Assembly (NCBI RefSeq): GCF_013139515.1
Contig: NZ_WTAR01000070.1
Location: 1-35,742 of the forward strand
Length of the DNA stretch: 35,742 nucleotides
Source of the DNA: Lutibacter sp.
GTDB taxonomy: Bacteria; Bacteroidota; Bacteroidia; Flavobacteriales; Flavobacteriaceae
Direction of reading: 5' to 3'
Shown: positions 8,785-11,271 of the stretch, in pieces
Layout of the letters: the number at the start of each line of letters is the position of its first letter
Numbering within the stretch: the first letter of the stretch is position 1
Notes under the pieces: model-generated
What the model was told of the DNA's origin: nothing
What the model saw: only the letters and a program-made list of their open reading frames with translations
Database searches by the model: none
Position numbers and translations under genes: made by a program

Positions 8785-9405
8785 TTACTGTTTTTTACAA
8801 ATCATTAAGAATAATGGATACTTTTTTGTTTCAGATTCAAGATTTTTTTCAATTTCAAAACAAATTTTATAGTGTTCAATAGTAAAACCATTATTTATTA
8901 AAAGTAGGCTTAATTTTTCTTTGTCAAACCCATTATGCCCATCAAAATTTGGATGTTTGTTATGAAATGAGCCATCTTCTTCAACCAAGTCGGCAATGCA
9001 TACATAGCCATTTGTTTTTAATAGGGAATTAAATATTTTGGCAACTTTTTCGAGGTTTATTATATGATGAAGCGTCATTAACATATAAATTACGTTAAAT
9101 GTGCCAATATTTAAATCTTCTTCAAGAAGGTCAACTAGAAGAGGTTTGAAATTTAATAAATGCTGTTTTTCAATTTTTTCTTGTAAAACATCAATCATTC
9201 CTTTTGAGTTGTCGGCAAGTAAAATTGTTTTAAATGCGTCTTTTAATTGAAAGCTCAATAAACCAGTTCCACAACCAAATTCTAAGGCAGTGTCGGTTGA
9301 TTTAGGATTGGTAAAGTTTATAATCTCTTTAGCAAATATTTTTGCTCTTTCCGTTTTTTTAGGGTCATTATTCCATTCTTTGGCTTGCTTATCAAAGTGT
9401 TTCAT
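8785..9405 (-). CDS. class I SAM-dependent methyltransferase
   Basis: 206 residues with a Rossmann methyltransferase fold. Motif I is ALEFGCGTGLLSFQL near residue 40, the acidic end of strand 2 is in LLADNSKGMI, and motif IV is in GTFNVIYMLMTLHHI. The rest holds a late strand YVCIADLVEEDGSF and a C-terminal sheet with HYKICFEIEK. Proteins of this kind (Methyltransf_11/25 type) act on small molecules or quinones. Nothing here shows the substrate. The gene lies 62 bp upstream of dus on the same strand, but dus has its own promoter. A candidate -7 box, TACATTTA, lies at 9437-9430. Confidence 0.8.
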   Translation of the reverse strand: MKHFDKQAKEWNNDPKKTERAKIFAKEIINFTNPKSTDTALEFGCGTGLLSFQLKDAFKTILLADNSKGMIDVLQEKIEKQHLLNFKPLLVDLLEEDLNIGTFNVIYMLMTLHHIINLEKVAKIFNSLLKTNGYVCIADLVEEDGSFHNKHPNFDGHNGFDKEKLSLLLINNGFTIEHYKICFEIEKNLESETKKYPLFLMICKKQ

Positions 9406-9478
9406 TAAAATAGACTACTAATATTTAGGTAAATGTACTTAAAGTTAATAGAACAGATAAGGTGTATGAAAAAAGTAA

Positions 9479-9518
9479 CGTGTAACTAAACTATTAAATT
9501 TAATAGTTTAGTTACACG
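9479..9518 (-). terminator. terminator of hbpS: perfect 40-bp palindrome
   Basis: The two 20-bp arms (CGTGTAACTAAACTATTAAA and its complement) are perfectly complementary with no spacer. On the minus strand the hairpin is followed by TTACTTTTTTC, so it fits a factor-independent terminator for hbpS, whose stop is 26 bp before it. The stretch between stop and hairpin carries CCCAACCCC. A near copy lies at 10237-10280. Confidence 0.7.
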
Positions 9519-9543
9519 CCGAAAAAAGGGGTTGGGATATATT

Positions 9544-10005
9544 TTAGTTAGTTGTTGATGCTCCAGCTTCTGCAACTGCGTGATCGTTTTCAACTGAACT
9601 TCCACTTACACCAATAGCACCAATAACTTCACCTGCTTCATTTTTAATAGGAACTCCACCCGGAAAAGTAATTAAACCGCCATTTGAATGCTCAATATTA
9701 TATAAAGAACCTCCAGGTTGTGAAAGGCTTCCAATAATTCCAGTATTCATATTAAAGTAACGAGCTGTTTTAGCTTTCTTTAGCGAAATATCAGCTGAAC
9801 CTAACCAAGCACCATCCATACGTACAAAAGCAACTAAGTTTGCACCTGCATCAACTATAGATATGTTCATTTTTGTGTCTAAAGAAATTGCTTTTTCTTT
9901 TGCAACTGCAATCATTTTTTCAGCTTGCTCTAAAGAAATACCATTTTGGCTAAATCCTATAAAAGAACAAATCATAAATACCAGTAATAAGGTTGTTTTT
10001 TTCAT
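9544..10005 (-). CDS. secreted GlcG/HbpS (DUF336) family protein
   Basis: 153 residues: a signal peptide (1-19, ending GFSQ), then one GlcG/HbpS domain. Seen are [16 protein letters not shown], the strand [19 protein letters not shown], then [26 protein letters not shown] and the closing [20 protein letters not shown]. HbpS in Streptomyces binds haem and relays oxidative stress to a sensor kinase. Other members are linked to glycolate or corrinoid metabolism. Haem binding is not shown by this sequence. A palindromic terminator follows it. Upstream lie a -7 box and a direct-repeat operator also found beside the AraC gene. Regulation by that AraC protein is the simplest reading. Family call strong, function unknown. 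Confidence 0.85.
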
Positions 10006-10038
10006 TTTTTAGTTTTAATTATTTAAATTATAATACTG

Positions 10039-10046
10039 CAAATATA
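10039..10046 (-). promoter_or_regulatory. -7 promoter box of hbpS
   Basis: The minus strand reads TATATTTG, a perfect TAnnTTTG, 33 bp upstream of the hbpS ATG. No clear TTG -33 box is present. Exactly 29 bp separate it from the operator at 10076-10112, as in the orphan unit. Confidence 0.65.
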
Positions 10047-10075
10047 GTTTGATTTTTAAACGATTTATTACGGTC

Positions 10076-10112
10076 AAAGTTCAGAAATTTATGAAAAAAG
10101 GTCAATTATTTG
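10076..10112 (-). promoter_or_regulatory. direct-repeat operator upstream of hbpS (candidate AraC site)
   Basis: The plus strand shows AAAGTTCA (10076-10083) and AAAGGTCA (10097-10104), two half-sites 21 bp apart, that is on the same face of the helix. The 37-bp element matches 10385-10421 at 32 of 37 positions. Spacing and orientation suit a dimeric AraC-family activator; the araC gene is adjacent. Confidence 0.55.
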
Positions 10113-10229
10113 TGTAACGTAAATTAAAATAAAATACTTCTGAAATTTGAGGTATAATAATCAGTTAAATTTTACGAACCCCTAAATAAAAGATAGATAT
10201 TTAGTTTTTTTAAATAGTGAAAGTTCTTT

Positions 10230-10341
10230 AAAAAGTAACGTGTAACTAAACTATTAAATTTAATAGCGAAGTTACACGTTGTAAAGGGGTTGGGGTATTT
10301 TTATAGTATTATAATATAACTAACCAATAATATATATATAT
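10230..10341 (-). ncRNA. orphan transcription unit: candidate small RNA or gene-deletion scar
   Basis: A promoter (10355-10348) and a terminator (10280-10237), both near copies of those of hbpS, bracket about 110 bp with no reading frame. The predicted RNA starts near 10341, passes an A/T-only stretch and a CCCCAACCCC segment, and ends in the long hairpin. The leader and 3' segment resemble the hbpS untranslated regions, as if the coding part had been removed. Whether it makes a functional RNA cannot be seen from sequence. Confidence 0.35.
10237..10280 (-). terminator. second copy of the palindromic terminator
   Basis: A 44-bp inverted repeat whose 22-bp arms differ at three adjacent positions (AAA against TCG when compared), so the stem has one internal mismatch patch. 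On the minus strand it is followed by ACTTTTTAAAG. It and its flanks match 9474-9535 closely, down to a shared GGGGTTGGG on the plus strand. No gene ends into it. Confidence 0.6.
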
Positions 10342-10347
10342 AATATG

Positions 10348-10355
10348 TAAATATA
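10348..10355 (-). promoter_or_regulatory. -7 box of the orphan unit
   Basis: The minus strand reads TATATTTA (one mismatch to TAnnTTTG), aligned with the hbpS box at 10039-10046 and at the same 29-bp distance from its operator. Confidence 0.45.
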
Positions 10356-10384
10356 GTAGAACTTTAACCTTATAGGTTATTGTT

Positions 10385-10421
10385 AAAGTTCAAAAGCTTA
10401 TGAAAAAAGTTCAATTAATTG
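10385..10421 (-). promoter_or_regulatory. direct-repeat operator next to the araC stop codon
   Basis: AAAGTTCA at 10385-10392 and again at 10406-10413, with 21 bp between repeat starts. It is the cleaner of the two copies of this 37-bp element and ends one base before the araC stop codon. Confidence 0.55.
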
Positions 10422-10422
10422 G

Positions 10423-11271
10423 TTATTTAACTTTTTTTGGACTAAAACCAAATTCTTTTTTAAAAGCACTGCTAAAATTTGAAAGGTTATTATAACCAAA
10501 ATCTTCGTAAATTTCTGAAGGTTTTACGTTTTCTACTTGTAGTTTTTCTTTTGCTTTATGCAGTCTTTGTTTTAGAAACCATTTACCTGGATTTACGCCA
10601 TATTCATTTGAAAAATGACGTTTAAATGTGGATAAACTCATATTGCATAAAAAAGCGATTTCTTCTAATTTTAAATTAGTATAAAGATTAGTTTCTATAA
10701 TTTTTCTAAAAGAATAATCACTATTTGACGAGGTTAAAGAATATAAATATTGAATAAAATTCACACCATATTTATCTGCTAAATAAAGCATTAATTCTTC
10801 AAATTTAACACTTAAAAGGTTCTCTGAAAATTTGGAGTCTAAAACTTGTATTGATGTTAAAGAATTTACAAACGAAGCTGTATATTCATCGTTTTCAATT
10901 ACAAAATATGGAGCTTCATCAGGTTTTTTATTTATTTCTAATGAAAAAGATTTATGATGTTTGTGCAAAAAATCTTCTACATTTTTTTGCGAGAAAAAAA
11001 ACAATTTACAAAAATAAACAAAGTCTTTGTTTAGAAGCTCGGTCATTAAAATATTTCCACTTTTTATTATAATAGATTGCTTCTCATTAACTGCTACTGA
11101 ATTATTTGCAAAATGAACTTGTTTTTCTCCAATTTGTAAAAAACTAAACATGTGTAAGTTTAATTTTACTTTACTTTTTACAACATCATCAGTCATTCTA
11201 AAATCATGAACAAATAAACTTGATTGCTCCGGTTTGCTTTCTCTAAATATTTCAGGAATGTTTTGAACCAT
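10423..11271 (-). CDS. AraC-family transcriptional regulator
   Basis: 282 residues. The N-terminal part (about 1-170) is a cupin-like ligand or dimerisation region as in flavobacterial AraC proteins (NLHMFSFLQIGEKQVHFANN). The C-terminal part (about 185-282) is the double helix-turn-helix, with LKLEEIAFLCNMSLSTFKRH and the family signature around YGVNPGKWFLKQRL and IYEDFGYNNLSNFSSAFKKE, closing with FGFSPKKVK. AraC proteins bind two direct repeats about 21 bp apart near -35. Such repeats lie directly downstream of this gene and upstream of hbpS, which suggests it controls both. The inducer is unknown. Its own -7 box abuts the terminator of the DUF3570 operon. Confidence 0.9.
   Translation of the reverse strand: MVQNIPEIFRESKPEQSSLFVHDFRMTDDVVKSKVKLNLHMFSFLQIGEKQVHFANNSVAVNEKQSIIIKSGNILMTELLNKDFVYFCKLFFFSQKNVEDFLHKHHKSFSLEINKKPDEAPYFVIENDEYTASFVNSLTSIQVLDSKFSENLLSVKFEELMLYLADKYGVNFIQYLYSLTSSNSDYSFRKIIETNLYTNLKLEEIAFLCNMSLSTFKRHFSNEYGVNPGKWFLKQRLHKAKEKLQVENVKPSEIYEDFGYNNLSNFSSAFKKEFGFSPKKVK

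Follow-up and report, generated by a model that had tools for sequence, protein, structure and literature searches.

Organization of the araC-hbpS locus

The window analyzed here is a stretch of 35,742 nucleotides from Lutibacter sp. (contig NZ_WTAR01000070.1 of assembly GCF_013139515.1). It carries on its minus strand the gene of an AraC-family regulator with ExsA_N and HTH_18 Pfam domains (araC, 10423-11271) and, further downstream, an hbpS-like gene encoding 153 amino acids (hbpS, 9544-10005; PF03928 match, 8.3e-39). The hbpS gene is preceded by an operator (10068-10105), identified with the family profile described below, and by a -7 box, TATATTTG (10039-10046), and it is followed by a terminator hairpin with a fully paired stem (9477-9520), which was both called by the terminator scan and recovered by folding. 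Between araC and hbpS, at 10230-10421 and on the same strand, lies a second set of control elements without a gene. The order along the minus strand is thus araC, the gene-less unit (10414-10230), a spacer (10229-10113), the hbpS operator and promoter (10105-10039), hbpS and the hbpS terminator. On the far side of the locus, a methyltransferase gene (8785-9405) separates the hbpS terminator from a Dus gene; at locus L037 (genome G012), a Dus reading frame directly follows the hbpS terminator, with no methyltransferase gene in between.

An earlier note on this DNA had described the gene-less unit as repeating the hbpS operator, -7 box and palindromic terminator, arranged and oriented as they are at hbpS, and the coordinates agree with this description, including the equal gap of 29 bp between the operator end as then defined and the box in the two units. 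The operator copy proposed at 10385-10421 is identical to 10076-10112 at 32 of 37 positions, but the 37-bp limits are shifted by 7-8 bp with respect to the site defined by the relatives, which is a 38-bp AraC-type direct repeat at 10377-10414 (TTGAACTTTTTTCATAAGCTTTTGAACTTTAACAATAA). The -7 box does lie at 10348-10355, 21 bp from the operator end; it reads TATATTTA instead of the TATATTTG present at hbpS, the final G of TAnnTTTG being replaced by A. The terminator copy (10237-10280) is a 44-nt hairpin with 22-nt arms and a T tract extending to about 10230, but its palindrome is imperfect, with one internal mismatch block. The distance from the box to the stem amounts to 67 bp (10281-10347) and not to about 110 bp as previously stated, some 110 nt being the length of the putative transcript. 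These 67 bp consist of an AT-rich remnant leader and the CCCCAACCCC 3'UTR motif. The unit is devoid of any reading frame, as the note had it: on the minus strand between 10229 and 10376, no stretch from start to stop is longer than 8 codons.

The likeness between the two units exceeds what chance would give. The terminator stretches 10230-10285 and 9470-9525 are identical at 50 of 56 positions, and the best chance matches among 200 pairs simulated from the local dinucleotide composition were 28/37 for the operator and 38/56 for the terminator. For the CCCCAACCCC part, there is a match to the 3' end of hbpS that no shuffle among 500 equalled, and the terminator sequence of the gene-less unit has no further occurrence in the genome. 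Fold energies are -21.0 kcal/mol for the gene-less terminator and -25.6 kcal/mol for that of hbpS. The terminator scan called only the hbpS hairpin and missed the gene-less copy, probably because of the mismatch block breaking its stem. The stem of the terminator at loci L039 and L040 is likewise imperfect, and the mismatch block CTTCG, which occupies the 5' arm at 10237-10280 in the window, is found on the 3' arm there, as if it had switched arms within the palindrome. The genome is a draft of 157 contigs; with 6 mismatches in 56 bases and 7 in 38 between the two copies in the window, a simple misassembly of a repeat is unlikely. The gene-less unit, found in one genome so far, is judged to be a genuine remnant of an hbpS unit and not a chance likeness.

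The spacer (10113-10229) shows no secure homology to either flank: its similarity to the araC tail was matched by 23 of 500 shuffles, which does not make an araC remnant secure, and homology to the DNA past the hbpS terminator, matched by 78 of 500 shuffles, was rejected. The second half-site of the gene-less unit is connected to the operator-box spacer by a perfect inverted repeat of 10 bp (GAACTTTAAC / GTTAAAGTTC, 10359-10391); both 10-mers are otherwise absent from 10000-10500, so that the hbpS copy has no such repeat.

The operator and the -7 box in the family

Relatives of araC were collected by scanning 84,980 bacterial and archaeal species genomes, which yielded 241 stretches, and the best 80 of these 241 (L038-L117) were kept; nearly all of them are labelled Bacteroidota, L050 being labelled Moraxellaceae. 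With a profile refined on the 1.2 kb after araC, trained on the scored loci themselves with the window left out, a 38-bp site was found downstream of araC in 77 of these best 80 of 241 loci. L060, L078 and L091 were dropped from the set, and L041 and L090 pass weakly, with scores of 18.1 and 18.8. The site is a direct repeat with a period of 21 bp, in which the repeated parts are the TGAnCT halves and the TAA following them. Such a repeat would fit two subunits of an AraC-family activator, and we take it to resemble ExsA sites; the araC product is presumed to bind both operators in the window.

The gene-less operator has a profile score of 47.3 and the hbpS operator one of 41.5, the maximum in 20 simulated windows being 3.4. 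It outscores the working hbpS operator, and also 25 of the 77 family operators retained from the best 80 of 241 loci. Of the 24 positions with a conservation of 85% or more across the family loci, it has the commonest base at 23. Lying directly downstream of araC, it has the family-consensus direct repeat in its usual place. The two operators of the window are identical at 31 of 38 positions and at all 24 family-conserved ones, while only 9 of the 21 bases of the operator-box spacer agree in an ungapped comparison. Up to 3 mismatches, these two copies are the only occurrences of the operator pattern in the genome.

In 73 of the 77 loci (again from the best 80 of 241), a TAnnTTT box is located 21-22 bp after the operator, and four loci have no such box. 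The final base of these 73 boxes is G in 69, A in three and C in one. In a study on Flavobacterium psychrophilum, TAnnTTTG is given as the -7 consensus of sigma-A promoters (PMC9723704). The spacing of 21 bp in the gene-less unit fits this pattern, and its sequence, TATATTTA, departs from it. Since a box with a final A also precedes an intact hbpS gene in L063, L081 and L093, the altered box is no proof that the promoter is dead.

Relatives of the locus and origin of the gene-less unit

An ORF of at least 80 amino acids starts 15-124 bp past the operator in 76 of the 77 loci (best 80 of 241), and in the remaining one, L099, the contig ends inside hbpS. The gene-less unit, in which no gene starts within about 125 bp of the operator, therefore stands out. 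Based on length and N-terminal motif, with one member scanned per class other than hbpS, the next genes in these loci from the best 80 of 241 were assigned to hbpS (44), to an aldehyde-dehydrogenase-like class of about 500 amino acids (22), to a 383-aa iron-alcohol-dehydrogenase-like class (8) and to a 396-aa formaldehyde-dehydrogenase-like class (2). The best match of the aldehyde-dehydrogenase-like protein of L098 is the acetaldehyde dehydrogenase ExaC (821 bits, below the cut-off of 900), the protein of L059 matches iron alcohol dehydrogenases below the cut-offs, and that of L082 matches glutathione-independent formaldehyde dehydrogenase above the cut-off. At L082, two operators 1.3 kb apart precede the formaldehyde dehydrogenase gene and hbpS, respectively; two serial operators thus follow a single araC gene as in the window, but each of those at L082 has its own gene. 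The closest counterpart of the gene-less unit is the araC-operator-hbpS unit of Bacteroidota (44 of the 77 loci, the nearest being L038-L040), which it resembles in operator sequence, in operator-box spacing and in its place directly after araC, and, in the case of L038-L040, also in having a hairpin terminator preceded by a CCCC stretch. It differs from that unit in having no gene, in the replacement of the final G of the -7 box and in accompanying, as an additional copy, a unit that is intact.

Apart from the genome of the window, only two of 38 genomes of the genus, G012 and G014, carry close orthologues of both araC (85 and 76%) and hbpS (88 and 89%); in four others, hbpS is present at 56-59%. 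The nearest relatives are L038 (Lutibacter sp. UBA4458, corresponding to G012), L040 (corresponding to G014) and L039. Each of the three has a single operator, 12-18 bp past the last aligned araC base, followed by hbpS, the match to which starts 113-118 bases after that base. The gene-less operator begins 8 bp past the araC stop codon and hence occupies the position of the ancestral hbpS promoter. The comparison with close relatives proposed in the earlier note thus reveals that this place is taken by just one operator-hbpS unit, which is the ancestral arrangement. L039 and L040 (HGW-Bacteroidetes-2 and -3) have identical operators and hbpS 3' ends that are 97% identical, a likeness possibly due to recent transfer or to binning contamination; judging from the position and sequence of its operator, L039 appears to be the same as genome G299, which belongs to another genus.

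No further gene-less unit was found in the 38 genomes of the genus, in 397 genomes drawn from the larger group of the family and searched with the operator pattern, or in the best 80 of the 241 loci. In G012 and G014, the DNA of the unit matched parts of the control elements; eight other genomes of the genus gave matches to stretches of 24-75 bp, some of these stretches overlapping the operator. With up to 2 mismatches, the operator pattern matched 23 of the 397 drawn genomes (G012 and G014 lie outside this draw), with two sites only in G000 and G261, and two operators within 310 bp occur only in the window's genome among these 23. The sites of G261 are 1.3 kb apart, and one of them is identical to a sequence seen in L082. 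Two tandem hbpS genes were not found at any locus among the best 80 of 241.

The simplest account of these data is a tandem duplication of the hbpS unit, after which about 450 bp, namely the ORF, disappeared from the copy nearer to araC. Judging from the sequence comparisons, we give this reading a probability of roughly 0.7. The option of a lost hbpS paralogue raised in the earlier note is well supported, since the flanks of the gap are homologous to hbpS, the breakpoints fall near the ends of the ORF and L038-L040 carry a single unit. When the two units of the window were aligned with a single long deletion allowed, the 12 best solutions lay within about 2 points of each other; in them, the hbpS-unit sequence is kept until 11-13 bp before the start codon (10016-10018) and resumes at 9553-9575, 10-32 nt before the ORF end, so that the deleted length is 440-463 bp. 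A direct repeat, AACTAAAA, occurs just outside the start codon (10007-10014) and across the stop codon (9542-9549). It is a plausible slippage site, a chance match in such AT-rich DNA being expected about one time in five according to a rough estimate. No residue of the hbpS coding sequence was detected within 10303-10347 of the gene-less unit (301 of 500 shuffles did as well), and the match of its leader to the hbpS leader past the box is not beyond chance (200 of 500 shuffles). The lost gene is therefore deduced from the flanks, and the absence of coding residues would be expected after a near-total excision of the ORF.

The ancestral order would have been araC directly followed by the operator, the promoter, hbpS and the terminator. 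After a tandem duplication in this lineage, the araC-proximal copy would have lost essentially its coding sequence, joining promoter and terminator. The signals that might date these events are inconsistent. The two operators of the window differ at 7 of 38 positions, while the hbpS operator differs from that of L038 at 4 and the gene-less operator at 5, which would place hbpS nearer to L038; the 3'UTR/terminator identities (0.86 between the window copies, 0.84 between hbpS and L038, 0.80 between the gene-less unit and L038) would place the window copies slightly nearer to each other.

Possible roles of the leftover elements

Even with no hbpS copy behind it, the leftover operator can probably still be bound by the regulator today, and the leftover terminator probably stops araC read-through ahead of the promoter of the working hbpS gene. 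RNA made from the leftover promoter would be short, about 110 nt, and untranslated, most probably with no function of its own. The loss of the -7 G and the mismatch block, with its weaker fold, count against a function. On the other hand, unless the loss of the ORF is recent, an undecayed operator next to a spacer with 9 of 21 bases in common is not what would be expected of a neutral relic of great age. Either the loss is recent, or the operator and the terminator are still useful, for example by offering the regulator a further site and by terminating araC transcripts; a decoy or an insulator role is possible.

The alternative that comes next, which we hold to be rather unlikely, is that the operator was kept after the loss of the ORF as a site for the regulator beside its own gene, serving titration or feedback, and the terminator as the end of the araC transcript, uncoupling araC from hbpS. 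The high profile score of the gene-less operator is in line with such retention, as are the hairpin, which still folds, and the araC-hbpS gaps of L038-L040, which fold weakly (-8.5 to -11.7 kcal/mol) and have no terminator-like hairpin; with only two operators found in the genome, the extra one doubles their number. However, the presence of the unit in one genome only makes conservation inseparable from a recent loss of the ORF, and the 309 bp between the operators correspond to about 29.4 turns at 10.5 bp per turn, which is out of phase for looping.

The earlier note had also considered a co-regulated small RNA. According to this explanation, which we find improbable, the unit would encode a functional RNA some 110 nt long under the same control as hbpS; this RNA might be the hbpS 3'UTR (CCCC motif and hairpin) freed from its gene. 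The promoter-to-terminator layout has the right spacing, CCCC precedes the hairpin in both window copies and downstream of hbpS in the 3'UTRs of L038-L040, the three nearest relatives, and the whole putative transcript (10341-10229) folds better than shuffled sequences (z -4.49). The 61-nt leader alone is unstructured, however (z +1.73; its fold was equalled or bettered by 195 of 200 shuffles), which means that the good fold of the whole transcript comes from the terminator. CCCC occurs in only 4 of 47 hbpS 3'UTR rows, in one of them inside a stem, the base of 47 being overstated since at least three rows (L044, L046 and L063) show upstream DNA; a 3'UTR RNA conserved throughout the family was rejected on this count. 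An Rfam search of 9400-10500 gave three matches, all below the gathering scores and none within the gene-less unit, two of them to a microRNA family on the hbpS palindrome. Independent small transcripts have been reported in a flavobacterium, F. psychrophilum (PMC9723704), and the gene-less unit is like them in layout only, as a small unit without a protein-coding gene. They were found as transcripts and, according to that article, many may have homologues in the genus, whereas the gene-less unit is known from its sequence and in one genome. Of two features by which a small RNA was judged, conservation of the unit was not found in the relatives searched and structure beyond the terminator is absent from the leader; in addition, the -7 box is without its G. 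The small-RNA option thus received no positive support. Slightly less probable again is the birth of a non-coding RNA gene in one step by near-exact excision of the ORF, after which the activator would drive a 110-nt RNA made of the leader and the hbpS 3'UTR hairpin.

A target of the regulator other than hbpS, for instance a formaldehyde dehydrogenase gene, is hardly credible as the lost gene: the two operators of L082 are compatible with this reading, as is the location of hbpS about 1.5 kb after araC in L060 and L090 (the intervening gene being assigned by its shared N-terminus only), but in its 3'UTR motif and terminator the gene-less unit agrees with hbpS of its own genome and with the counterparts of that gene in relatives, and hbpS directly follows araC in the nearest relatives.

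Duplication of the hbpS unit followed by loss of one ORF remains the preferred reading, and the gene-less unit is then a tidy but fairly ordinary evolutionary scar. It would provide a clear example of the disappearance of a duplicated gene with its control elements left behind, the ancestral state being visible in relatives. The sharply defined operator of an AraC-family regulator is a by-product which may be more useful than the scar itself. Neither the operator nor its regulon was found described in a limited literature search, and the exact 17-mer TTGACCTTTTTTCATAA likewise gave no match. The presence of this operator in Bacteroidota before hbpS and before ExaC-like aldehyde dehydrogenase, iron-alcohol-dehydrogenase-like and formaldehyde-dehydrogenase-like genes suggests that the regulator may control an alcohol/aldehyde regulon including an HbpS-like protein.
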